Of a stretch of 64,000 nucleotides of DNA, positions 3,030 through 18,925 are shown one piece after another. Below the pieces are notes generated by a model. That model saw nothing but the letters and a program-made list of their open reading frames with translations. It did no database searches and was not told where the DNA came from. The DNA comes from Pseudomonadota bacterium (GTDB lineage Bacteria > Pseudomonadota > Gammaproteobacteria > Acidiferrobacterales > Acidiferrobacteraceae). The position numbers were made by a program, and so were the translations under genes. Numbering within the stretch: position 1 is the stretch's first letter; each line of letters begins with the position of its first letter. The DNA is taken from assembly GCA_021785035.1 (NCBI GenBank), contig JAJYGP010000025.1:124001-188000 (forward strand), read 5' to 3'.

Positions 3030-3043
3030 TTGATCCACATCAA
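3030..3043. promoter_or_regulatory. FNR/Anr box between nrdD and the radical SAM-ubiUV operon
   Basis: TTGATCCACATCAA is a perfect match to the FNR consensus TTGAT-N4-ATCAA. On the + strand a -10 element TACACT (3066-3071) is centred 32 bp from the box centre, exactly the class II (-41.5) geometry, giving a start near 3078 for the operon at 3103. On the - strand a weaker TAGGGT (3002-3007) sits at the same distance for nrdD. One box could therefore activate both directions. Confidence 0.85.
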
Positions 3044-3102
3044 CGGATTGGGTGGCATCAGTCCGTACACTTTAGCCATCCGTTCTTTGGGAAGTGAGGG
3101 CT

Positions 3103-3777
3103 ATGGCGATCGTGAATGCCGTTCGGCGTCCGGAGGTCTTTTTAAAGCCGATACGGGGAGTTGTAGCCTATCGAATAGGCCAGAGTGTCTATTTGAACCT
3201 CACCAGCCGCTGTACCTTGCGTTGCCGATTCTGTCCCAAATTTCATCGGACTTGGATTGTTGAGGATGCCTACCTTCGGTTGGCGTTGGCAGACGAGCCG
3301 AGGGTCGCAGATGTCGTTTCGGCGGCGCAGCTTCAGGGTGCCTGTGAGGAGTACGTGTTTTGCGGCCTGGGCGAGCCGACTACGCGCCTTGATACCTTGC
3401 TCGAGGTCGCCTCGATTCTAAAGAGAGGGGGTAACCGCCTCCGCCTTAATACCGACGGGCTCGCTCAGCTCATCCATGGCCCCGACGTTGCCCCGCGCCT
3501 GGCGGGCCTTATAGATCATGTGTCGATTTCCTTGAATGCTCACAATGAGGCCGTCTATCAGCGCTGGTGCCGGCCAAAGCTTTCCGGAAGCTTTGCCGCG
3601 GTTCTCGCCTTTGCCGAGCGCTGCCGGGGTTTTGTGCCCAGGGTGACCCTGACTGCGATCGACGGTCTAGACGGGGTGGATATTAAGGCGTGCGCCGGGC
3701 TAGCGCGCGATATCGGAGTCGGGTTTCGCGCCCGACCGTGGGGGGCCACAGGTGGTCGTGCTTTCCGAGTTCGTTGA
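3103..3777 (+). CDS. TatD-linked type radical SAM protein
   Basis: About 224 aa with a radical SAM motif CTLRCRFCPK near residue 40 and a GLGEPT motif typical of compact NrdG/QueE-sized radical SAM enzymes. Overall form and the leading YLNLTSRC resemble the TIGR04038 family (TatD-associated radical SAM protein), whose substrate is unknown. ATG at 3103 follows GTGAGG; a GTG at 3094 is an alternative. It is first in an operon with yhcC-like, ubiU, ubiV and the LplA-DUF116 gene, and its 3' end overlaps the next start by 26 bp. The promoter carries an FNR box, so expression should rise when oxygen is low. No TatD nuclease gene is nearby, so the role here may relate to the operon instead. Confidence 0.75.
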   Translation: MAIVNAVRRPEVFLKPIRGVVAYRIGQSVYLNLTSRCTLRCRFCPKFHRTWIVEDAYLRLALADEPRVADVVSAAQLQGACEEYVFCGLGEPTTRLDTLLEVASILKRGGNRLRLNTDGLAQLIHGPDVAPRLAGLIDHVSISLNAHNEAVYQRWCRPKLSGSFAAVLAFAERCRGFVPRVTLTAIDGLDGVDIKACAGLARDIGVGFRARPWGATGGRAFRVR

Positions 3778-4681
3778 CACGTTTGGCCAACACCTCCTGT
3801 CGCAATTCGGCGAACGAGTCCATAAGGTGGCCATAGACGCGGGCTTTACCTGCCCCAACCGCGATGGCCGCCGCGGCCGTGGCGGTTGCACGTTTTGCAA
3901 TAACAAATCGTTTCAGCCGGAGGCCCGGATGCCAACTATCGTTGATCAAGTCCGCGCAGGCATGGCTTGCGTAGTGCGCCGTACCGGCGCACGCAAGGTC
4001 TTGGCCTATTTTCAGACCTATACGAATACCTATGCGCCGCTTAACACGTTGGCCACGTGCTACGAACAGGCGCTTTCGGTGCCGGGCGTCGTTGGTTTGA
4101 GTGTCGGCACGAGACCCGATTGCCTATCGGACCCGATTGTGGGGCTGCTTGCCTCCTATCGCGACCGTGGTTATACGGTCTGGATTGAGCTGGGTTTGCA
4201 GTCGAGCTTCGACGACACTCTTTTGCGCGTCAATAGAGGCCACGGCTTCGCCGAATATCGCGAAGCTATTGCTTTGATAGGCCGCTACCAATTACCGGTG
4301 TGCACGCACCTTATCATCGGGCTGCCAGGTGAGGGGCGTCGCCATGCGCTAGAGACTCTGGCGCGGGTTTTATCTCTGGGCGTTGCCGGTCTCAAGGTGC
4401 ATCCCCTGCATGTAGTCCGCGGGAGCCGTCTGGCGCACGACTGGCGCAAGGGCGAATTGACACCAATATCTTTCGAGGACTATATCGCCATCGTAACCGA
4501 TCTTATCGAGCGCACACCGCGCCATGTCGTGTTTCATCGACTTACCGGGACTGCCCGCGCGGCCTTGCTGTTGGCGCCTGAGTGGTGCTCCGGCAAGTGG
4601 CGGGTCTTAAACGCGATTACCTCAGAACTCGCGAGAAGGGGAACGTCCCAAGGGGTCTTCGCACTAGCAGGGGTCTTATGA
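3752..4681 (+). CDS. YhcC-family (TIGR01212) radical SAM protein
   Basis: 309 aa, the same length as E. coli YhcC and alike from the N-terminus (FGERVHKVAIDAGFTCPNRD). The cluster cysteines are in TCPNRDGRRGRGGCTFCNN, the characteristic C-x(about 9)-C-x2-C spacing of this Elp3/MiaB-like family. The start is GTG at 3752 inside the previous gene, after a G-rich ribosome-binding stretch. The stop overlaps the ubiU start (ATGA). The family's reaction is not established to my knowledge. Its place in an FNR-controlled operon with the O2-independent ubiquinone hydroxylation genes suggests an anaerobic role, which is inference. Confidence 0.85.
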   Translation: MVVLSEFVDTFGQHLLSQFGERVHKVAIDAGFTCPNRDGRRGRGGCTFCNNKSFQPEARMPTIVDQVRAGMACVVRRTGARKVLAYFQTYTNTYAPLNTLATCYEQALSVPGVVGLSVGTRPDCLSDPIVGLLASYRDRGYTVWIELGLQSSFDDTLLRVNRGHGFAEYREAIALIGRYQLPVCTHLIIGLPGEGRRHALETLARVLSLGVAGLKVHPLHVVRGSRLAHDWRKGELTPISFEDYIAIVTDLIERTPRHVVFHRLTGTARAALLLAPEWCSGKWRVLNAITSELARRGTSQGVFALAGVL

Positions 4682-5682
4682 CGATACCAGAACTTGTGTG
4701 TCCGGCGGGCACCGGGGCCGCGCTCGAAGCGGCCGTCGATCATGGAGCGGATGTCGTCTATGTGGGGCTGCGCAACGAAACCAACGCCCGTAATTTCCCC
4801 GGTCTTAATCTGACGACCTCCGAGCTCATGGGTGGTGTCCGCTATGCCCATGCCCGGGGGTGCAAGGTCTATCTTGCGCTCAATACCTATCCTCAGCCCG
4901 GGCGATTGGCCATGTGGCAGCAGACCGCTGATCAGGCCGCGTCGGCCGGCGTGGATGCAGTTATAGCAGCTGATCCCGGGGTCTTGCGTTATTGTCAGCA
5001 GCGCTACCCGAATTTGCCGCGCCATTTATCGGTCCAGGGTTCGGCTACGAGCAACCAGGCTTTGAGCTTCTATGCCGAGCAATTGGGCGTAACGCGCGCG
5101 GTCCTTCCGCGCGTTCTGTCGCTGAATCAGGTTCAAAAGCTCGGGGAGAAGGCCCCGGTGGATCTCGAAGTCTTTGGTTTTGGTGGCTTATGCGTCATGG
5201 TCGAAGGGCGCTGCGCCCTCTCGTCTTACGCGACCGGGGTATCCCCCAACACCTGTGGCGCTTGTTCCCCGGCCTCGGCCGTCCGTTGGGAAGAGAAAGC
5301 AGGGAAACGCCATGTCCGCTTAAATGGCGTCCTGATAGACGTCTTCCAGAAGACCGAAAAAGCGGGATATCCCACCTTGTGCAAGGGCCGCTTCAAAATC
5401 GGTGAAAACGTAGGCTACGTCTTGGAGGAGCCGACCAGCCTCAACGTCTTGCCTATCCTGCAGGACTTGGCGCGGATTCCGGTACGCGCGATCAAGATCG
5501 AAGGCCGCCAGCGCTCACCATCTTATGTCGCCCGCGTAACCGCGATTTTTCGGGCGGCCCTGGACGCCTATTCGCGAGACCCTGAGGCCTACCGCGTGCA
5601 AGCCTCGTGGACCGAGGGACTGGCGTCTTTGTCTGAGGGCCACCACCAGACCCTCGGCGCCTTTGAAAGGCCCTGGCGATGA
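4678..5682 (+). CDS. ubiU: UbiU, O2-independent ubiquinone hydroxylation subunit (U32 family)
   Basis: 334 aa, closely matching E. coli YhbU/UbiU throughout (ELVCPAG at the start, NARNFPGLN, RHLSVQGSAT, VLPRVLSLNQV, IEGRQRSP). The four cysteines that bind a 4Fe-4S cluster in UbiU are present in GLCVM, EGRCALSS, GACSP and PTLCKGR. UbiU acts with UbiV as a heterodimer, with UbiT, to hydroxylate the ubiquinone ring without O2. An extra Cys in SPNTCGACSP is not in the E. coli protein. The ATG at 4678 overlaps the upstream stop; a longer frame exists but would lie inside yhcC. Older peptidase U32 labels are misleading for this subfamily. Confidence 0.95.
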   Translation: MTIPELVCPAGTGAALEAAVDHGADVVYVGLRNETNARNFPGLNLTTSELMGGVRYAHARGCKVYLALNTYPQPGRLAMWQQTADQAASAGVDAVIAADPGVLRYCQQRYPNLPRHLSVQGSATSNQALSFYAEQLGVTRAVLPRVLSLNQVQKLGEKAPVDLEVFGFGGLCVMVEGRCALSSYATGVSPNTCGACSPASAVRWEEKAGKRHVRLNGVLIDVFQKTEKAGYPTLCKGRFKIGENVGYVLEEPTSLNVLPILQDLARIPVRAIKIEGRQRSPSYVARVTAIFRAALDAYSRDPEAYRVQASWTEGLASLSEGHHQTLGAFERPWR

Positions 5683-6563
5683 GGCTCTCGCTGGCACCCA
5701 TCCCGTTTTTTTGGGAACCGAAGAGACTTCGGAGCTTCTACGCCGCTATTGCCGAAAGCCCGATCGATATCGTCTATCTCGGCGAGACCGTCTGCTACAA
5801 ACGCCGCGGCCTGCGGCTCCCGGATTGGCTCGCCATAGGCGATATGCTGACAGCGCACGGGAAGGAGGTCGTTTTGTCGAGCCTCGTCCTAGTCGACGGC
5901 GAGGCCGAGATCAGGGCGACGCGGAGATTGTGTCAAAACGGCCGTTTCCTTATCGAGGCCAACGATATGAGCGCTGTAAGCTTGGCGCACGGGACCGCGT
6001 TCGTGGCGGGCGCCACTCTCAATATTTACAACGAAGAGACGCTAAAGATCCTAATCGAGAGCGGGGCTACCCGGTTTGTGGCAGCTCTGGAGCTGGACCA
6101 TCGGGCCCTTGCGACCTTGCGCGCCGCGCACGCCCCATCCATCGAATGTGAGGTCCTGGCCTTCGGCAGGCCAGCCCTCGCCTATTCGGCGCGCTGTTTT
6201 AGCGCGCGCAGTATTGATCGCGGTAAGGACGCTTGCGAATGGGTTTGCGAGGGGCAGCCGGCTGGTATTCCGGTAGCGACCCAAGAGGATGTCCCGTTTC
6301 TGACGATAAACGGACCTCAGGTGCATTCCGCGCAGATCTTGAATTATCTTACCGACCTTTCCCAGCTTGACGCTGCGGGCGTCGATATCTTACGTATCAT
6401 GCCCGAAGCCGAACATTCACTGTCCGTTATCGAGATCTTCCGTGCGGTCCTCGATCGACGCCAGACAGTCGAGGCCGCGATCAGCGCCTTGACGTCCAAG
6501 GGCCTCACTCGCGGGACCAATGGCTACTGGCACGGGCAAGCGGGCCAGACGCTATGTCCATGA
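5679..6563 (+). CDS. ubiV: UbiV, O2-independent ubiquinone hydroxylation subunit (U32 family)
   Basis: 294 aa, matching E. coli YhbV/UbiV (SLAPIPFFW, DIVYLGETVCYKRRG, FLIEANDMSAV, LAYSARCFSARS, DACEWVC). The UbiV cluster cysteines are visible in ETVCYKR, SARCFSAR and the DACEWVC pair. It partners UbiU to hydroxylate the quinone precursor without O2. The start overlaps the ubiU stop (ATGA) and the end overlaps the LplA-DUF116 start by 10 bp, so translation is probably coupled. It is expected to follow the FNR control of the operon promoter. Confidence 0.95.
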   Translation: MRLSLAPIPFFWEPKRLRSFYAAIAESPIDIVYLGETVCYKRRGLRLPDWLAIGDMLTAHGKEVVLSSLVLVDGEAEIRATRRLCQNGRFLIEANDMSAVSLAHGTAFVAGATLNIYNEETLKILIESGATRFVAALELDHRALATLRAAHAPSIECEVLAFGRPALAYSARCFSARSIDRGKDACEWVCEGQPAGIPVATQEDVPFLTINGPQVHSAQILNYLTDLSQLDAAGVDILRIMPEAEHSLSVIEIFRAVLDRRQTVEAAISALTSKGLTRGTNGYWHGQAGQTLCP

Positions 6564-8104
6564 CCTTAGCGTGGCACGATATTCATACGCTCGATCCTCG
6601 GCAGTTCGAGGCCTATGAGGAAGCGCTGTGCGCCCGTGCCCAAGCCGGCGAGGCGGTGCTTGGGTTTTCGCGCTTGTCGCGTTGCGCGCTTATGGGAGCT
6701 TTCGAGGACCCTCGCAGGGCTTTACGTCTATCCTATATACGCGACCGCTTTCCCATCGTCCGTCGCCGCACGGGCGGCGGCAGCCTCTCGTTGGATCCGG
6801 GGACGCTTATTCTGGTGCTCGCATTTCCGAGCCCCAGAAATAACATTAAGCCCCTGGCTGAGCTCATGGCAAGCTTATGTGCCCCACTCTTGCAGGCCCT
6901 GAGCCAGTATGGCCTCTGCGCGCGCTTTGATGCTCCAAACGATATGACCGTCGAAGACCGCAAGATAGGAAGCGGCTTTTTGCTCCGCGACGGAGACGTT
7001 ATTGTGTTCGAGGCAGCGCTGGCCCTGTCTTTGGATATTGAAGAGCTGTTGAAGACCTTGAGGCTGCCGCTCGAAAAGCTCTCGGCGGCTGGAATTTTGG
7101 CTGCTCGTGATCGCTTCGCGCCCTTGAATGCCCACCTTCCCGATCTGCGGACCGCCGCTCTTCATTCCACCATTGCCCTACACCTAGCCCAAGCGCTCGG
7201 TCTTTCCCCGCAGCGCGAAAGGCCACCGTGCCCAAAGACGCGTAGCCCCATGGTTTTTACCGAAGACTGTGTGCCCGACGTCTCGGCCTTCCTAAAAACC
7301 CCAGGAGGTGTTGTGTATATCGATGTCTGCTTGGATGGGACCATGGTGCGCCGTGCCCGATTTACAGGCAGCATTCACTGCGCCAACCCAAAGACCTGGG
7401 CGCGTCTTTCCGACTCTTTACAGGGTTCTGATATCACAAGGCTTGGGCTGACCCTGGACCGCGTGTTAGAGGGATCCCCCGATATGATAGGCATAGATCG
7501 GGCTGACATCGTCTATCTCGGACACTTGTGTGCGTCTCGTCACGCCATAAGCCAACACCTGGATTTCTCCGCGGCCCGCCAGATCACGATTTTTAGTCTC
7601 GACCGGACCATTGCGGCGCAAGACATTCTAGCGGCCGCGGAGGTCGTTCTTCTCCCCTATTGTGCGAAACCGTCATGGTGCAAATGGCGCCATCGAGACG
7701 GCTGCCCTGAATGCGGATTCTGCGCGGTGGGTGAGGCCTATCACTTGGCGCGTCAGCGCGGCCTTCAGGTTGTGACCATTACCGCCTACGAACATCTTTG
7801 CACGGTGCTCGCGGATATGAAACGCCGTAAGGTGTCCGCGTTTCTCGGCGTCTGTTGTACAGACTTCTTTCTTAAGCGCGACTATGCCTTCGTAGACGCG
7901 GGGATACCCGCCCTCTTTATCGATATAGGGGGCGACACGTGCTACACCCTGCGTTTAGAGGAGGCCGCTTACGCGGGACGGTTCGAAGCAGAGGCGTCTT
8001 TGGACGCGCGCTTATTCGCGAACGTCCTGCAATGGCGAGATCGCTTGAAGGCCGACCGGGACGTGGAGGTTGGCCGGGCCTCTGGTCTCAATGGGGTCCT
8101 ATAA
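6554..8104 (+). CDS. Lipoate/octanoate ligase-like domain fused to DUF116
   Basis: 516 aa in three parts. Residues 1-220 form a lipoate-protein ligase A fold with RRRTGGGSLSLDPGTL (the usual RRxSGGGAVxHD-like loop) and NDMTVEDRKIGSGF, which keeps the catalytic-type lysine. Residues about 240-310 (GGVVYIDVCLDGTMVRRARF) resemble the LplA C-terminal accessory domain. Residues about 350-490 resemble DUF116: many cysteines in PYCAKPSWC, CPECGFC, HLCTV and GVCCTDF, suggesting a metal or Fe-S site. It is the last gene of the FNR-linked rSAM-ubiUV operon and its 3' end overlaps the convergent methyltransferase gene by 6 bp. The substrate is unknown; plain lipoate scavenging is possible, but endogenous lipA/lipB lie 10 kb away. 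Confidence 0.75.
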   Translation: MSMTLAWHDIHTLDPRQFEAYEEALCARAQAGEAVLGFSRLSRCALMGAFEDPRRALRLSYIRDRFPIVRRRTGGGSLSLDPGTLILVLAFPSPRNNIKPLAELMASLCAPLLQALSQYGLCARFDAPNDMTVEDRKIGSGFLLRDGDVIVFEAALALSLDIEELLKTLRLPLEKLSAAGILAARDRFAPLNAHLPDLRTAALHSTIALHLAQALGLSPQRERPPCPKTRSPMVFTEDCVPDVSAFLKTPGGVVYIDVCLDGTMVRRARFTGSIHCANPKTWARLSDSLQGSDITRLGLTLDRVLEGSPDMIGIDRADIVYLGHLCASRHAISQHLDFSAARQITIFSLDRTIAAQDILAAAEVVLLPYCAKPSWCKWRHRDGCPECGFCAVGEAYHLARQRGLQVVTITAYEHLCTVLADMKRRKVSAFLGVCCTDFFLKRDYAFVDAGIPALFIDIGGDTCYTLRLEEAAYAGRFEAEASLDARLFANVLQWRDRLKADRDVEVGRASGLNGVL

Positions 8105-8758
8105 GCCGCCCCAGGCAAAAACATTAACGCGCGCCGGAGGTACGTTCCGCCAAATCGTGCGTGAACGAAGACAGGTAAGGTCTTGGGCCCAATCGATGGC
8201 CTGGCATCGCAAACTGTACGTAAATTGAATGAAGGTGGCCCCTTTTGGCAGAATCGCCTCAAGCTCGTTCCCAATACGGTGGACGGTCACCTTAGGAAGA
8301 GATTTGAGCGGCAGGCTGGATACGACCGCCGAAATGCGCTCCGCACGCCGGCCGAGCAGGACGGCAAGTTGCGCGGCGTCGCCTTCCAAGACTGTCACTT
8401 GCGGAAACCGCGTACGAAGATGGGCCGATAGCAAGGCCGATTGTTCCACAACGATGAGCCGCTTCGGGTCCAGGCCATGCGCCAAAAGCGCCGCCGTGAC
8501 GACGCCCGTGCCGCCTCCCAGTTCCACGATGTAGCCATCGTCGCACAAGACTGCTTGGGCCGCCATGTAGTCCGCCAGATGGCGAGAGCTTGGGCATGCG
8601 GCCCCCACCGCTTGCGGACCCGAACGCAAAACCCTTATAAAAAGCCGCAGGTCGGCAGGTACGACCGAGACCCATAATCTGTTGATAAAGCCCCAACATT
8701 CTTTATGCCAGGGTGATCTTTCCGTTGGTTTTGTGGATTCTGTCATGGCTTGCCCCAT
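8099..8758 (-). CDS. Class I SAM methyltransferase, phospholipid N-methyltransferase-like
   Basis: About 219 aa. The SAM-binding motif VELGGGTGVVTAALL is near residue 75, preceded by FIRVLRSGPQAVGAACPSSR, an arrangement typical of PmtA-type phosphatidylethanolamine N-methyltransferases and often labelled rRNA-adenine-methylase-like. Later motifs (VVSSLPLKSLP, FIQFTYS) also fit PmtA. If so, it would help make phosphatidylcholine or its methylated precursors at the inner membrane. The frame is open to 8833, but ATG at 8758 follows a G-run at a good distance. It is convergent with the LplA-DUF116 gene and 77 bp downstream of ubiT on the same strand. Substrate assignment is tentative. Confidence 0.7.
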   Translation of the reverse strand: MGQAMTESTKPTERSPWHKECWGFINRLWVSVVPADLRLFIRVLRSGPQAVGAACPSSRHLADYMAAQAVLCDDGYIVELGGGTGVVTAALLAHGLDPKRLIVVEQSALLSAHLRTRFPQVTVLEGDAAQLAVLLGRRAERISAVVSSLPLKSLPKVTVHRIGNELEAILPKGATFIQFTYSLRCQAIDWAQDLTCLRSRTIWRNVPPARVNVFAWGGL

Positions 8759-8835
8759 AAGGCCCCCCGCCCTGAAAGACCGAGCGCAGCAACTCCTATG
8801 GGCTAAGGATATAGCATGAGGCGTTGAATGCAATG

Positions 8836-9318
8836 TTAACGCGATAGGCGGCCCTTATAGCCTTCTTTCTGATGGAGCGTAAAAGGCTTGCGAAAAGTCC
8901 TCAAGCGACGGTAGATCGCGCCTTCCAAGGCGTGGCGGATGTGAAGCGCAATATCGGTTTTGCCTTCCACGGCGAGCTGTCTGTCAAAAAAAAGTGCATC
9001 GGCATCGTCGGTTTGCCGTAATAAGGCCAAAAAAGACGCGATATCGCCGCGGATACATACATCGCAGCGCTCGGGTCGTACTGGCCATAGGAGGCCTTCG
9101 CGAACCACAAATCCGAGTTTTAATGTCGGCGCGGTGATCTCAAGACATATGTGGGCTCCCGACAAGGCGTCAAGCGAGCCGTCGGCTTCGTCCAGGCCAA
9201 GCAGGATGTTGGTCATGAGGGCGGCCAAGGCCGCTAATATCGGCGCCGGAATGATTCTCGCTGCAAGGCCCACGGCGCGAGGTAAGCTGTGTTCGGCAAG
9301 ATGTTTGGCAAGACTCAT
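8836..9318 (-). CDS. ubiT: UbiT, SCP2-domain accessory factor of O2-independent ubiquinone synthesis
   Basis: About 160 aa with an SCP2 lipid-binding domain. The stretch ALFFDRQLAVEGKTDIAL closely follows E. coli UbiT (YhbT). UbiT is thought to bind quinone intermediates and is required with UbiU/UbiV for ubiquinone synthesis under anoxia. I take ATG at 9318 (MSLAKHLAEHSL); an upstream start at 9399 would overlap an FNR box at 9352-9365 and the divergent ubiD promoter. Separated from ubiUV by the methyltransferase and transcribed oppositely, but under a box of the same type. Confidence 0.88.
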   Translation of the reverse strand: MSLAKHLAEHSLPRAVGLAARIIPAPILAALAALMTNILLGLDEADGSLDALSGAHICLEITAPTLKLGFVVREGLLWPVRPERCDVCIRGDIASFLALLRQTDDADALFFDRQLAVEGKTDIALHIRHALEGAIYRRLRTFRKPFTLHQKEGYKGRLSR

Positions 9319-9351
9319 GGTCGCATTGTGACCGGTTCCAGCGCGCGCATC

Positions 9352-9365
9352 TTGATCAGCATCAA
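9352..9365. promoter_or_regulatory. FNR/Anr box between ubiT and ubiD
   Basis: TTGATCAGCATCAA is a perfect FNR palindrome in the divergent ubiT-ubiD gap. For ubiD, a TATATT at 9407-9412 would place the box near -61, a class I position, with transcription starting almost at the GTG start codon. For ubiT, CACAAT (RC of 9325-9330) is about the class II distance away, which would put the transcript start close to the ATG. The exact promoters are less clear than for the other two boxes. Confidence 0.78.
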
Positions 9366-9420
9366 AGCGAGTTTGCGTTGGATCAAAAGTTCGAACCAAG
9401 AATTCTTATATTCTCTCGCC

Positions 9421-10884
9421 GTGCCGTTTTCCGATATTCGCCAATTCTTGACCCACCTCGAGCGCCAAAATCTCCTAAAGCGAGTGACGGCCGATGTGAG
9501 CGCACACCTTCAGATTACCGAGATCTGCCGCCGCGCGATCATGGCGCATGGGCCCGCGCTCTTGTTCGAGCGCGTCGATGGCCGCGCGACCCCGGTCCTC
9601 GGCAATCTCTTTGGGACGGTCGATCGTGTGCTTCAGGCGATCGATTGCCCGGATGTGGCCGGGCTCCGGGCCCTGGGCGAATTGCTGGTGCGCATCAAGG
9701 AACCGCGATGGCCCCAGACTATAGGTCAGGCGGCCCGCCACATTCCGACTCTTCATAGACTTTGGAGCGCCCACCCGCGTCTGCTTTCGACAGGCCCCGT
9801 TAAGGACTGCGTACAAGAAGGCCCGGACGTCGACCTCGAGACCCTACCGATCTCCTATTGCTGGCCGGACGATGCCGGTAAGCTCTTGACCTTCGGTCTG
9901 GTCGTGACCCAGGCGGAGCCGCAGGGCCGCCATAACGTGGCCATCTATCGTCAGCAACTGATCGGGCGTAATCGCCTCATTATGCGCTGGCTCGCCCATC
10001 GCGGTGGGGCGATGGACTACGCGCGTTGGCGGGAAACGCGCCCGCAGGAGCCGTTTCCCGTGGCGGTCGCGATTGGGGCTGATCCGGCCCTAACGGTCGC
10101 TGCAGTAGCGCCGATACCAGACAGTATTTCGGAATATCAGTTTGCCGGCATCTTGCGCGGCGCGCGCACCGAGCTTGTGGCGGCGGGCAACGGCCTGCTC
10201 GTGCCCGCGCGCGCCGAAATTGTGCTTGAGGGGGTGATCTTACCCGATGACGTGGCCCTCGAAGGGCCGTTTGGCGATCATACTGGCTACTATAACGAGC
10301 AAGCCCATTTCCCAGTCATGACTGTCCGGCGTATTACCCATCGCAGTGCCCCACTCTATCAGACGACCTATATGGGCCGGTCTCCGCACGATGAACCGTC
10401 GGTCCTGGCCATGGCCTTAAACGAGGTCTTCGTCCCGCTTCTCCAACAGCAGTTTCCCGAGATCGTCGACTTCTATTTACCGCCCGAGGCCTGCTCGTAC
10501 CGGGTCGCGGTGGTCAGTCTCCGTAAGCGCTACCCAGGGCATGCGCGCCGCATCATGATGGGGATCTGGTCCTATTTGCGTCAATTTACTTACACCAAGT
10601 TTGTGATTGTTACGGACAACGATATCAATATCCGCGATTGGTCGGATGTTATCTGGGCCGTCGTTACCCGTGCCGATCCCGCCCGAGATGCCCTGGTTCT
10701 CACGGGGACGCCCATAGACTATCTGGACTTCGCGAGCCCCGAGCCCGGGCTTGGCGGAAAAATGGGCATTGATGCGACCCTCAAGAGCCGCCCCGAGACC
10801 ACGCGCACTGCGGGCTGCCCAATTCGCCCCGATCCCGAGGCCGCGGCCGCAGTCGCCGATATTTGCCGGAGCCTCGGATTCTGA
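9421..10884 (+). CDS. ubiD: UbiD, 3-polyprenyl-4-hydroxybenzoate decarboxylase
   Basis: 487 aa; E. coli UbiD is 497 aa. Removes the ring carboxylate of polyprenyl-hydroxybenzoate using prenylated FMN made by UbiX (not in this window). The N-terminal SDIRQFLTHLERQNLLKRV, GPALLFERV, the NLFGTVDRVL block, and VTDNDINIRDWSDVIWA are family hallmarks. The start is GTG at 9421, where homology begins; the frame stays open to 9289, but that extension runs across the FNR box and antisense to ubiT. There is little Shine-Dalgarno. Placing ubiD under an FNR box beside ubiT groups it with the anaerobic ubiquinone genes. Confidence 0.93.
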   Translation: MPFSDIRQFLTHLERQNLLKRVTADVSAHLQITEICRRAIMAHGPALLFERVDGRATPVLGNLFGTVDRVLQAIDCPDVAGLRALGELLVRIKEPRWPQTIGQAARHIPTLHRLWSAHPRLLSTGPVKDCVQEGPDVDLETLPISYCWPDDAGKLLTFGLVVTQAEPQGRHNVAIYRQQLIGRNRLIMRWLAHRGGAMDYARWRETRPQEPFPVAVAIGADPALTVAAVAPIPDSISEYQFAGILRGARTELVAAGNGLLVPARAEIVLEGVILPDDVALEGPFGDHTGYYNEQAHFPVMTVRRITHRSAPLYQTTYMGRSPHDEPSVLAMALNEVFVPLLQQQFPEIVDFYLPPEACSYRVAVVSLRKRYPGHARRIMMGIWSYLRQFTYTKFVIVTDNDINIRDWSDVIWAVVTRADPARDALVLTGTPIDYLDFASPEPGLGGKMGIDATLKSRPETTRTAGCPIRPDPEAAAAVADICRSLGF

Positions 10885-10887
10885 CCT

Positions 10888-10901
10888 TTGATCTACATCA
10901 A
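10888..10901 (+). promoter_or_regulatory. FNR/Anr box of the hemN promoter
   Basis: TTGATCTACATCAA is a perfect FNR palindrome directly after the ubiD stop. A -10 element TATCTT (10924-10929) is centred 32 bp downstream, the exact class II spacing, giving a start near 10936 and a short leader containing the AGAGG ribosome-binding site of hemN (ATG at 10949). Confidence 0.88.
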
Positions 10902-10948
10902 GGTCGCAGGCTTAAGGCCCGCCTATCTTTAAGCTTTAGAGGTTGCTT

Positions 10949-12319
10949 ATGAACGACTTTATCGATCAGTCATTGGTCGCACGCTACGGGGAGTCGGCAC
11001 CGCGCTACACGTCCTACCCGCCCGCGACCCAGTTTCATGAACAGTTCAAGGCCAGGGATCTCATCGCCGCAATCGGCGCGCACCGCAAAGAAGACCCGTG
11101 GTCGCTTTACGTGCATATCCCGTTTTGTGAGTCCGTATGCTATTACTGCGCCTGCCACAAGGTCGTTACTAAGCATCACGAACGTGGCGGATCGTATGTG
11201 TCCTCTGTGGCCCGCGAGCTTGCGCTTCTAGCGCCTTTGCTGGGCCCTGCCCCGCGCCTTGACCAACTGCACTGGGGCGGCGGTACGCCCACGTTTTTGG
11301 GCCATGATGACATGCGCGCGTTGATGGTCGCGATTTCCGACCATTTTGTGCTTCGCCCAGACGACAGCGGCGAATATTCGATCGAGATTGACCCACGCCA
11401 CGCATCAGACCCTACGCTCGTGCTTTTGCGGGACATAGGGTTCAACAGGTTGAGTCTTGGTATCCAGGATTTTGATCCCGAGGTGCAACGCGCTATCAAT
11501 AGGAAACAGAGTTATTCTTTAGTCAATCGGGTCATATCGAGCGCCCGCGCGCTCGGATTTAAGTCAATCAGTGTCGATCTCATTTATGGCCTGCCTCACC
11601 AGAATCGCAGCCGATTCGCCCGCACGCTGGATCGAGTGCTTAGTTTCTCGCCTGACCGGATATCGCTCTTTCATTACGCGCATCTACCGGATCGCTTCAA
11701 GCCACAGCGCCGTATCGAGACCAATGACCTTCCAGACGGCCCGACGAAGCTCGCGATTCTGGGCGACGCGATCCGCGCCTTCCGGGAGGCGGGCTATGTG
11801 TACATTGGTCTTGATCACTTCGCCAAATCGCAGGATGAGTTGGCTCGTGCGCAACGCGACCGGACGCTCGGCCGCAACTTTCAGGGCTATTCGACGCATG
11901 GCGATCTTGATGTCCTCGGCATAGGGCCCTCGGCGGTGAGCCGTATAGGCTCCACCTACAGCCAAAATGCCTGGGAGTTACGGCAATACACGGACCTTAT
12001 CGATAGTCAAATCCTTCCCGTGCGCCGGGGGTTTGAATTGAGCGGCGACGATCAGATTAGACGCGACTTAATCAATAGTCTTTTATGCCATATGGAATGC
12101 GATATCGGCGCGTTCGAGGCGCGTCACTCGCTCCTTTTCGCACGCTATTTCGCCTCTGAGATCGAGCGGCTGGCACCGTTTGTCGACGACGGCCTGGTGA
12201 CCCTGGGCGATCGCATTATCGTGACCGAGCGTGGCCAGATGCTGGTGCGCGCCATCTGTGCCGTCTTTGATCGTTATCTGGCCGGCGAAAATCGTGTGCG
12301 ATTTTCGCGGGTGATCTGA
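10949..12319 (+). CDS. hemN: Oxygen-independent coproporphyrinogen III oxidase HemN
   Basis: 456 aa, matching E. coli HemN (457 aa). This radical SAM enzyme converts coproporphyrinogen III to protoporphyrinogen IX without O2. The cluster motif is in HIPFCESVCYYCACHK (C-x3-C-x2-C), followed by HWGGGTPTFL and YSIEIDPR, both HemN signatures, and LSLGIQDFDPEVQ. ATG at 10949 has AGAGG seven bases upstream; a TTG at 10943 is less likely. A perfect class II FNR promoter precedes the gene and a terminator follows at 12409, so it is probably monocistronic. Confidence 0.95.
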   Translation: MNDFIDQSLVARYGESAPRYTSYPPATQFHEQFKARDLIAAIGAHRKEDPWSLYVHIPFCESVCYYCACHKVVTKHHERGGSYVSSVARELALLAPLLGPAPRLDQLHWGGGTPTFLGHDDMRALMVAISDHFVLRPDDSGEYSIEIDPRHASDPTLVLLRDIGFNRLSLGIQDFDPEVQRAINRKQSYSLVNRVISSARALGFKSISVDLIYGLPHQNRSRFARTLDRVLSFSPDRISLFHYAHLPDRFKPQRRIETNDLPDGPTKLAILGDAIRAFREAGYVYIGLDHFAKSQDELARAQRDRTLGRNFQGYSTHGDLDVLGIGPSAVSRIGSTYSQNAWELRQYTDLIDSQILPVRRGFELSGDDQIRRDLINSLLCHMECDIGAFEARHSLLFARYFASEIERLAPFVDDGLVTLGDRIIVTERGQMLVRAICAVFDRYLAGENRVRFSRVI

Positions 12320-12452: not shown

Positions 12453-12466
12453 TTGATGCACGTCAA
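12453..12466 (+). promoter_or_regulatory. Near-perfect FNR-like box upstream of the flavoprotein gene
   Basis: TTGATGCACGTCAA differs from TTGAT-N4-ATCAA at one position. No -10 at the class II distance is convincing (AAGCTT region), so it may be weak. It shows that upstream in-frame start codons for the next gene, which fall in this box, are unlikely. Confidence 0.5.
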
Positions 12467-12494
12467 TGCGCCAGTGACTCGCGAGACTAAGCTT

Positions 12495-13682
12495 ATGACC
12501 ATGACTATTCCGATCATGTCTTCTTTCCCGAAACTCACCATTCGCGGTCGGGAGCTATTACCCATCGTTCAGGGGGGCATGGGTGTTGCCATTTCGGCCC
12601 ATAGGCTGGCCTCGGCCGTCGCCCGAGAAGGCGCGATGGGGACCATTGCCAGCGTCGACTTGCGCCACTTGCATTCGGACATTATGGCGCGCCTTAAGCG
12701 CTGCCGAGATCCGCAGCGCCTTCTGCACGGCAATTTGGAGGCCTTAGACCGAGAGATCAAGGCCGCACGGGCCGCCGCCGGGCCATCGGCCTTTATTGCC
12801 GTGAATGTCATGAAGGCGCTCAACCACTACGCGGATTTCGTCCGCCAGGCCTGTCGCAGTGGCGCCCAGGCAATCGTAATGGGCGCGGGTTTGCCGCTTG
12901 ATTTGCCGGAGCTTACCCACGGGCACGATGTGGCGCTTATCCCGATCTTATCGGAGGAACGAGGGATCGAGTTGCTGCTCCGAAAATGGATGCGCAAAGG
13001 CCGATTACCGGACGCAATCGTCATCGAGCACCCAGGTCACGCTGGCGGACATCTCGGAGCTGCGAACCTAGCGGACGTCACCGATCATCGTTTCGATTTC
13101 GGACACGTGTTGAAACAGGCGCTCGCCGTGTTGAAGAAGCTCGGGCTTGCCGGCGAATCCATACCGTTGATTCCGGCCGGCGGCATCGGGTCGTTTGGTG
13201 CCATACGCGAACTTTTGGAAAAGGGTGCGGCGGGAGTTCAATTGGGAACGGCCTTTGCTGTGACCGAAGAATGCGATGCCCATCTCAATTTCAAAAAAGT
13301 GTTGGCGGACGCCAAAAGCGAAGATGTCGTAACCTTTATGAGCGCCGCGGGCTTACCGGCGCGCGCTGTTCTGACGCCTTGGCTCAAACGCTACTTGGCC
13401 CGCGAAGGTCTTCTTAAAGCCCGCGCCGAAAGTCGCTGCGGCAGCTGCGCAAGCGGGCTCGAATGCCTGAGTCATTGTGGTTTCAAGGACGGAAACCCGC
13501 AGGCCGGGCAGTTCTGCATCGAGACTCAGCTGGCCGCCGCCGCGCGCGGCAACGTCAATAGCGGCCTTTTTTTTCGCGGTGCCGCCGCCTTGCCGTTCGG
13601 TCATGAAATTCGCTCCGTCCGGGATCTCTTGGAATATTTACTTACCGGGATCCGCCCGGCGATGGCGAAAATGATCGCTTGA
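12495..13682 (+). CDS. Nitronate monooxygenase / 2-nitropropane dioxygenase-like flavoprotein
   Basis: About 395 aa FMN-dependent TIM barrel of the NMO/FabK superfamily: VQGGMGVAISAHRLASAVA near the N-terminus, HPGHAGGHLG and PAGGIGS phosphate-binding motifs, and GVQLGTAFAVTEEC. The C-terminal 80 residues hold a Cys cluster (SRCGSCASGLECLSHCGF) not typical of classic nitronate monooxygenases, which suggests a metal or Fe-S site. Start is uncertain: ATGs at 12495, 12501 and 12516 all lack a strong Shine-Dalgarno. The DUF2249-hemerythrin gene begins 9 bp after the stop, so they form an operon behind an FNR-like box. Possible jobs are nitro/nitrosative detoxification or an NAD(P)H:flavin reductase role; the specific reaction is not known. 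Confidence 0.75.
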   Translation: MTMTIPIMSSFPKLTIRGRELLPIVQGGMGVAISAHRLASAVAREGAMGTIASVDLRHLHSDIMARLKRCRDPQRLLHGNLEALDREIKAARAAAGPSAFIAVNVMKALNHYADFVRQACRSGAQAIVMGAGLPLDLPELTHGHDVALIPILSEERGIELLLRKWMRKGRLPDAIVIEHPGHAGGHLGAANLADVTDHRFDFGHVLKQALAVLKKLGLAGESIPLIPAGGIGSFGAIRELLEKGAAGVQLGTAFAVTEECDAHLNFKKVLADAKSEDVVTFMSAAGLPARAVLTPWLKRYLAREGLLKARAESRCGSCASGLECLSHCGFKDGNPQAGQFCIETQLAAAARGNVNSGLFFRGAAALPFGHEIRSVRDLLEYLLTGIRPAMAKMIA

Positions 13683-17344: not shown

Positions 17345-18300
17345 ATGCCGACCTGCTCACCGGCTGCTTGGCGATCCGCGTGGTAAGAGGAGCGCACGAG
17401 AGGCCCGCTTGCCACATTGGTAAACCCGAGATGACGTGCGATGTCCGCGAGTTCCGCGAATTCCTCAGGGCTTACGTAACGATCGACCGGCAAGTGTGCG
17501 AGGCTCGGTCGCAGGTATTGGCCTAAAGTGAGCCATTCGCAACCGTGGGCGCGCAAGTCGGAAAGGGTCGCCTCGATCTCACTGCGGGCTTCCCCCAGGC
17601 CCACCATCAAGCCCGACTTGGTGGGAATGTGCGGGTATCGGTCCTTGAAGGTCTTCAATAACGACAGCGAGCCTTGGTAGTCCGCGCCCGGGCGCACGGG
17701 CTTATAGAGGCGCGGTACGGTCTCCATGTTGTGGTTAAAGATATCGGGCGGCGAGTCGGCCATCGCTGCGAGCGCGACATCGACTCGGCCTCTGAAGTCC
17801 GGGACCAACGCCTCTATCGTGACTTTGGGGGCATGTTGGCGTATTGCACGGATACAGGCGGAAAAATGGGCCCCACCCCCGTCGCGGAGATCGTCGCGGT
17901 CGACCGATGTGACCACAACAAATCGCAAACCCATGGCGGCGATCGCCTGGGCAAGGTGTTGCGGCTCGTCTCCGTCGAGCGGGTCAGGGCGCCCATGGGC
18001 GACATCGCAGAAAGGGCAGCGCCGAGTACAAAGACGCCCCATGATCATAAAGGTCGCGGTCCCATGGGTAAAACATTCGCCGATATTGGGGCAGGACGCC
18101 TCTTCACAGACACTATGAAGGTCATGGTCCCGCAGTATGGTCTTGAGGCGTCCGACCTCTGGGGCTAAGGGCGAGCGCACGCGCAGCCAGACAGGCTTTG
18201 GTGCCGGCCGTTCCGCCGTTTGCGCTGTGACCACCTTAATCTTTTGAATGCCTTTAAGGGCGCGCGAGGAGGTGTTGTTCGGATCCGTCGTACGGTTCAT
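17341..18300 (-). CDS. lipA: Lipoyl synthase LipA
   Basis: 319 aa radical SAM enzyme inserting two sulfurs into protein-bound octanoate. Both cluster motifs are present: the auxiliary C-x4-C-x5-C in [12 protein letters not shown], and the SAM cluster CTRRCPFC. The C-terminal region ends with the conserved SSYHAD around the RSSY serine ligand. The ATG at 18300 overlaps lipB by 47 bp; a shorter GTG start near 18240 is possible since the first 20 residues are not conserved. It follows lipB and ybeD in one operon. Confidence 0.95.
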
Positions 18301-18925
18301 GCCTATCCTCTTTGGGTGCGAACCCGAAGTGTGCCAAAAATTTCTCAGTCAAGACCTCCGCGACTACGGTGAGGTCAGAGGGGCCGCCGCAGTCCGCTAG
18401 CTGCGTGACCTTGAGTCCGTGGTAGCCACAAGGCGCAATCGATGCGAAGGGATTGAGGTCCATTGCGACGTTAAGGGCGAGGCCATGATAGCTACGGCCG
18501 GCGCGGATGCGCAATCCCAGGGCCGCAATCTTTGCTGCTCCGACATACACGCCGGGCGCCCCGACTTGTCTTCGACCCTCGATCCCAAAGCGCTCGAGGG
18601 TCGCTAGGACCACGGCCTCGAGACCGGATACAAGGTGCCGCACCCCGATTCCAAGACGTGTCAGATCGAAGAGGCTGTAGGCCATCAGTTGGCCCGGCCC
18701 GTGATAGGTCAGATCGCCCCCGCGGTCGGTGTCGATGGTCGGAATCGCGCCGCCGGGGGCCTGTTCGCGCGCGTTCCGCCCACGGGTGTATACCGGGGCG
18801 TGCTCGAGCAGCCAAAGCTCGTCACAGCTCGTTTCGGTACGGTTGGCGCTGAAGTCCTGCATGGCGCGCCAAGTCTGCCGGTAATCGACTAGCCCCGGCC
18901 ATCTGTGGATCCGCAGTTCGTTCAT
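18254..18925 (-). CDS. lipB: Octanoyltransferase LipB
   Basis: 223 aa. Transfers octanoate from acyl-carrier protein to lipoyl domains, the substrate step before LipA. Signature regions [20 protein letters not shown] and [14 protein letters not shown] carry the catalytic lysine/cysteine dyad region (Cys in APCG). The start overlaps the ybeD stop by 4 bp. Confidence 0.95.

Follow-up and report, generated by a model that had tools for sequence, protein, structure and literature searches.

An LplA–DUF116 fusion encoded with ubiUV tracks both UbiU and the lipoate assembly system of sulfur-oxidising bacteria

A ubiUV operon encoding a three-part fusion protein

Analysis of a 64,000-nt stretch of DNA (the window) uncovered an operon in which successive genes overlap. 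It opens with a radical-SAM gene of the TatD-linked TIGR04038 type (3094–3777, + strand; 214.7 bits, cut-off 129.7), followed by a radical-SAM gene of the MnmL/YtqA type that overlaps ubiU (TIGR01212; 3752–4681, +; 348 bits, cut-off 180), ubiU (4678–5682, +; NF047963, 512.8 bits, cut-off 440), ubiV (5679–6563, +; NF047965, 343.6 bits, cut-off 275), and a single open frame of 516 aa (6554–8104, +) encoding an LplA-like two-domain ligase with a C-terminal DUF116 domain. Downstream lie ubiT (8836–9399, −; NF047962, 76.3 bits, cut-off 46.9), a ubiD-family decarboxylase gene recognised from profile matches (9289–10884, +), and hemN for O2-independent coproporphyrinogen III oxidase (10943–12319, +; TIGR00538, 530.7 bits). 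The ubiUV neighbourhood proposed in the initial annotation of this DNA therefore stands, as UbiU, UbiV and UbiT all pass their NCBIfam cut-offs. The window also encodes lipA (17350–18312, −) and lipB (18332–18904, −).

Exact copies of the FNR-type motif TTGAT-N4-ATCAA occur exactly three times in the 64 kb, all within the first 11 kb: at 3030–3043 (+; TTGATCCACATCAA), upstream of the operon and divergent to nrdD, at 9352–9365 (+) between ubiT and ubiD, and at 10888–10901 (+) before hemN. Together with nrdDG, ubiUVT, ubiD, hemN, and the radical-SAM genes, these sites make up a gene island. Of 22 ubi-linked loci, about 16 have an FNR-type site with at most one mismatch ahead of the operon, and inspection by eye found no equally placed upstream site at unlinked copies of the fusion. 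Because such sites lie upstream here, and because ubiTUV genes are already known to carry upstream FNR sites (PMC11707229), anaerobic expression of the ubiUV–fusion operon is a well-based prediction.

Several neighbouring genes deserve mention in their own right. The TIGR01212-type radical-SAM gene adjoins ubiU/ubiV in most loci examined, with or without the fusion (L055, L057–L061, L091, L093–L095), which suggests a role in anaerobic ubiquinone synthesis that extends beyond fusion genomes, or else co-regulation. A PmtA-like methyltransferase gene (8099–8833; 102 bits, cut-off 250) is convergent to the fusion gene and retained beside ubiT in Acidiferrobacter-like loci, and possibly serves lipid N-methylation. 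A nitronate monooxygenase/FabK-like gene (12453–13682) has a one-mismatch FNR-type site at its start and is a further member of the island.

The fusion protein consists of an LplA catalytic domain (residues 16–206, 6599–7171, +; Pfam PF21948, E = 1.1e-19, 71.7 bits, cut-off 27) with RRRTGGG and ND...DRK motifs, an LplB-like accessory domain (residues 243–336, 7280–7561, +) recognised from the AlphaFold model and a Foldseek alignment to two-domain LplA, and a DUF116 domain (PF01976; residues 359–464, E = 1.7e-7, 31.3 bits, gathering cut-off 25) whose conserved span covers residues 355–492 (7616–8029, +). The AlphaFold model has a mean pLDDT of 87 overall and a confident beta-beta-beta-alpha-alpha unit at residues 243–304, and the N-terminal two thirds align with the two-domain E. 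coli LplA (1x2g) over ~330 columns (E = 2e-20). Motif alignment indicates that the window protein keeps the catalytic lysine, K137 (in ‘EDRK’), and the RRxTGGG motif. A three-part protein with an LplA catalytic lysine and a Cys-rich DUF116, as originally described, is thus borne out by Pfam, K137, and AlphaFold, its ‘accessory-like’ part being a second, LplB-like LplA domain. The overlap with ubiV is 10 nt when counted from the ATG at 6554 (the ubiV stop lies at 6561–6563). The true start is probably the ATG at 6560, which would leave a 4-nt ATGA overlap, because homologues of the fusion begin with M-x-L-x-W-H. Against the curated equivalog TIGR00545 (cut-off 280 bits), the fusion scores 61.5 bits; the sLpl(AB) ligase of the same genome, at 160 bits, is also below.

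DUF116 is the most constrained part of the fusion. Among 20 homologues, mean pairwise identity is 63% in DUF116, 39% in LplA, and 31% in the middle part, and dN/dS values computed for the window fusion against its nearest relative are lowest in DUF116 (0.06), followed by LplA (0.14) and the accessory domain (0.20). The homologue alignment contains eight invariant DUF116 cysteines (C370, C376, C384, C387, C390, C434, C435, and C463), which make a metal or Fe-S domain plausible. Those of the Cys loop CAKPSWCKWRHRDGCPECGFC (C370, C376, C384, C387, and C390; 7661–7723, +) show no substitution in homologue alignment A1 or in any of the aligned ubi-linked fusions. Model confidence is low across this loop, as is common for metal loops. 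Modelled alone, DUF116 is Rossmann-like (pLDDT 88). A search for a known fold returned as its best Foldseek match a designed protein (E = 0.011), along with type II dehydroquinase (Z ~7.8). Such matches are generic and therefore do not speak to function. To our knowledge, no function is recorded for the DUF116 family.

Two cases of extra copies were observed. In the nearest relative of the window locus (L004), the C-terminal part of the fusion is repeated ~2.3 kb downstream at 11811–12248 with 88% identity, as if after duplication or insertion, and three Acidiferrobacter-like genomes (L015, L016, and L017) carry a second fusion copy, 49% identical, off the ubi genes and near GTPase- and roadblock-like genes.

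Distribution with UbiUV and with the sulfur-oxidation lipoate system

In order to place the fusion among related genomes, 369 genomes of the class were searched with DUF116, UbiU, and LipS2 profiles. DUF116 matches 13 of them, in every case as this fusion, so within the sampled class the domain occurs solely fused to LplA. All 13 encode UbiU (p = 8.5e-9), and in ten the fusion is linked to ubi genes. The three unlinked fusions belong to one family (f123) and are diverged (27–32% identical), with part of the motifs lost; these (L051–L053) lie away from ubiUV in genomes without LipS2, and the EKL motif and the first Cys of the CC motif are gone. A separate collection scan recovered 31 fusion loci in 27 genomes from Acidiferrobacter-like bacteria, Thioalkalivibrio, Acidithiobacillus sulfuriphilus, Muproteobacteria, and betaproteobacteria. 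The gene lies within a ubi cluster in 23 of the 27; ubiV is directly upstream in 21 of these 23, and in the other two (L018 and L023) the contig begins inside the fusion gene, with ubiT and neighbours downstream. Three genomes carry the fusion elsewhere and ubiUV alone (L024/L088, L031/L089, and L033/L090), and L027 was counted with neither group. The two sets are not fully independent because some genomes are common to both: L007 apparently lies in G207 and L026 in G267, with identical coordinates. A chance neighbour of ubiUV was considered and is ruled out by co-occurrence and linkage far beyond chance, and the possibility, raised at the outset, that the fusion sits mostly away from ubiUV does not hold. 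Nor is it present wherever UbiUV is, since only 13 of the 93 UbiU-positive class genomes carry it.

The two other fusion matches in the phylum, G369 and G727, both lie in sulfur-oxidation gene clusters and not beside ubiUV. In sHdr sulfur oxidation, the LipS1/S2–sLpl(AB) lipoate pathway modifies LbpA, and sLpl(AB) lipoate:protein ligases are specific for LbpA (Cao 2018, PMC6067878; Tanabe 2023, PMC10332631). The gene order in G369 is sHdrC1-B1-A...B2-lbpA-lbpA-lipS1-[sLpl(AB)-DUF116]-lipT-lipS2, such that the fusion occupies the slpl(AB) slot, and its ligase part is 51% identical to the sLpl(AB) of the window genome; UbiU was not detected in this genome, which is 98% complete. The G727 fusion gene lies immediately next to lbpA. 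The two group together inside the fusion family in the DUF116 tree. G369 is the sole sampled member of its class, and G727 is the sole match among 142 genomes of its class. The junction of DUF116 with an sLpl-type ligase thus exists in two forms, one of them within the lipoate operon itself. Although known from one genome, the G369 arrangement argues more strongly than any other observation that the module is tied to the LbpA lipoate system and not to UbiUV alone.

Because of these two locations, LipS2 was tested as a marker of the LipS1/S2–sLpl(AB) system. Matches were counted at E ≤ 1e-40; none reaches the NCBIfam cut-off, and nearly all of those examined sit in lipS1-slpl-lipT-lipS2 clusters. 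Across the 369 genomes, UbiU is found in 93, LipS2 in 27, and both in 11. A ubi-linked fusion is present in 10 of the 11 genomes with both, in none of the 16 with LipS2 only, and in none of the 82 with UbiU only (Fisher p = 1.3e-6 and 1.4e-12, shared ancestry ignored), and the one genome with both markers that lacks it is G035. UbiU and LipS2 are themselves only weakly associated across the class (p = 0.07, shared ancestry ignored). Although these p-values ignore shared ancestry, contrasts within genera or families agree with a double dependence: G322, G147, and G311 have UbiU, LipS2, and the fusion, and their respective counterparts G106, G259 and G355, and G082 have UbiU only, while G236, with all three, is matched by G121 with LipS2 only. 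Among the 27 genomes of the collection scan, UbiU is found in 26 and LipS2 in 24. The fusion family thus follows the lipoate system of sulfur oxidation no less closely than it follows UbiUV. The initial proposal of a dedicated UbiUV partner does not survive in that form, given 82 UbiU-positive, LipS2-negative genomes without a ubi-linked fusion and a G369 fusion in a lipoate operon with UbiU not detected.

The window genome itself carries a full sHdr cluster on contig C22 (dsrE, sHdrC1, B1, A, B2, two lbpA, lipS1, slpl(AB), lipT, and lipS2) and, on C44, a further LplA-like gene near a third LbpA gene. Its fusion gene lies in the ubiUV operon and not in or beside the lipS1-lipT-lipS2 and shdr-lbpA genes, the setting by which an sLpl(AB) is recognised. 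All ten linked class genomes likewise retain an ordinary sLpl(AB) beside lipS1/S2. The early suggestion that simple lipoate scavenging is less needed here fits both lipA and lipB in the window and the complete sHdr-LbpA-LipS1-sLpl(AB)-LipT-LipS2 cluster elsewhere in the genome. An extra LbpA specific to fusion genomes was sought and not found: LipS2-positive genomes that carry the fusion do not clearly differ in LbpA gene number from those that lack it. Several LipS2-positive genomes have a third LbpA-like gene near a CRP/FNR-type regulator, fusion or not (L087, 7396–7728; L116–L122).

Ancestry of the ligase part and candidate roles

In the LplA tree, the fusions form a clade (support 99/98) that is sister to sLpl(AB) (95/97), a sister relation to be read with caution given only two long-branched outgroups. 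The G369 fusion alone falls within the sLpl(AB) clade, and the window fusion falls outside it, in the sister clade. One sLpl(AB) row (L105, misframed) and one fusion row (L027, frameshifted start) were left out of the trees. The ND...(R/K)K motif is kept in all cleanly aligned sLpl(AB)s and in most ubi-linked fusions. The catalytic lysine is lost in two lineages, one represented by G311 (HE...GRR) and the other by the g158 genomes G156 (GR...GRT) and G267 (HH...GRT), and the ND motif is lost also in G236. Loss of this lysine in LplA should end ligation. The fusions of all four genomes nevertheless remain after ubiV and keep all eight DUF116 cysteines, making it unlikely that ligation by itself is the shared function of the family. 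Ordinary lipoate scavenging was therefore set aside as the whole story in view of lipA/lipB, sLpl(AB), the lost catalytic residues, and the conserved DUF116.

The restriction of ubi-linked fusions, among the sampled genomes, to those in which UbiU and LipS2 co-occur suggests an anaerobic connection between the two pathways that has so far gone unstudied. We tentatively favour, at a probability of about 0.45, an anaerobically expressed factor of sulfur oxidisers that targets lipoyl-LbpA or the maturation of this protein and is co-transcribed with ubiUV. The fusion would be a paralogue of the sLpl(AB) ligases that carries a C-terminal Cys-rich DUF116 and is expressed, together with ubiUV, from an FNR-type operon under anoxia. 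The LplA fold would probably recognise lipoate, LbpA (the lipoyl acceptor in the sHdr pathway), or both. DUF116, probably metal- or Fe-S-bearing, would carry out the reaction that every family member retains; under anoxia this would most likely be the handling of redox equivalents or sulfur on the lipoyl-LbpA system, or regulation of its lipoylation. Co-transcription with ubiUV would follow if the fusion and ubiUV contribute to one and the same respiratory process in sulfur oxidisers, run anaerobically and dependent on ubiquinone. We infer LbpA as the target, the metal cluster, its chemistry, and the anaerobic role alike. Several points count against this reading: ligation of LbpA is already served by the ordinary sLpl(AB) in all ten linked genomes, LbpA counts do not follow the fusion, ligase residues are lost in two lineages, and the three f123 fusions occur without LipS2. 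Moreover, anaerobic expression by itself leaves the frequent place directly after ubiV unexplained.

That place, mostly overlapping or near ubiV in the linked class and scan genomes, counts in favour of a direct UbiUV partner, in which a DUF116 Fe-S cluster would pass electrons to the UbiUV hydroxylase or help assemble it and the LplA fold would serve as a docking domain. The presence of UbiU in every DUF116-positive class genome and the invariant cysteines fit this idea, as UbiU and UbiV are themselves [4Fe-4S] proteins (PMC6747719). We consider it unlikely, however, since the fusion is missing from 79 of the 82 UbiU-positive, LipS2-negative genomes, a control search for DUF116 found no match in E. 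coli, which has UbiUVT, G369 has the fusion with UbiU not detected, and ubiUV occurs without an adjoining fusion in G764, G771, G773, and G727. A bolder version, in which the fusion would physically couple lipoyl-LbpA sulfur oxidation to O2-independent ubiquinone synthesis, for example with lipoyl-LbpA-derived electrons driving or tuning UbiUV via a DUF116 metal centre, is quite doubtful. If true, the cell would match its anaerobic ubiquinone production to sulfur oxidation, and a first function could be assigned to DUF116.

The losses of catalytic lysine in G311 and G156/G267, and of ND there and in G236, with operon position and DUF116 kept, weigh against the idea of a protein ligase that works anaerobically with lipoate (or octanoate), as an additional enzyme for LbpA or a different lipoyl domain, and that DUF116 would only stabilise or regulate. 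Most members do keep the RRxxGGG and GRK motifs, both LplA domains are present, and the LplA part is under purifying selection, but an ordinary sLpl(AB) coexists and DUF116 is the more constrained part, which leaves such a ligase improbable. To be equally doubted is a passenger whose function is unrelated to ubiquinone and LbpA, carried in an anaerobic gene island assembled under FNR control; nrdDG, ubiUVT, ubiD, hemN, and the radical-SAM genes with their three exact sites would suit it, but the dependence on both UbiU and LipS2 and the location within sHdr clusters in G369 and G727 would not.

Relation to known systems

No prior description of an LplA–DUF116 fusion was found in the literature searched, and no paper there pairs ‘DUF116’ with ‘lipoate’. 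The fusion provides a clue to what DUF116 does. It also connects, at the level of genes and in a way open to testing, two pathways that have been investigated apart from each other: sulfur oxidation by sHdr and LbpA, which has dedicated lipoate assembly, and the anaerobic synthesis of ubiquinone by UbiUVT. For lipoate, it would add one more context, that of sulfur oxidisers living in the absence of oxygen.

With the O2-independent hydroxylases UbiU and UbiV (PMC6747719), the fusion shares an operon and the possession of several conserved cysteines, but it has no U32 domain and is missing from most organisms with UbiUV. The window protein shares with E. coli LplA (1x2g) the fold over both domains, the catalytic Lys, and the GGG motif, and differs in its ~20% identity, the extra DUF116, and its operon context. 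The closest known counterparts are the sLpl(AB) ligases, which are the nearest relatives in the LplA tree, have the same two-domain LplA architecture, occur in the same genomes, and are replaced in their slot by the fusion in G369. The fusion is set apart from them by DUF116, its seat in the ubiUV operon, and diverged LplA motifs that are lost in two lineages, and the window fusion is only ~28–31% identical to the sLpl(AB) of its own genome. The kind of ligase is known; what is new is its combination with DUF116, the operon in which it lies, and the dependence on both UbiU and LipS2.
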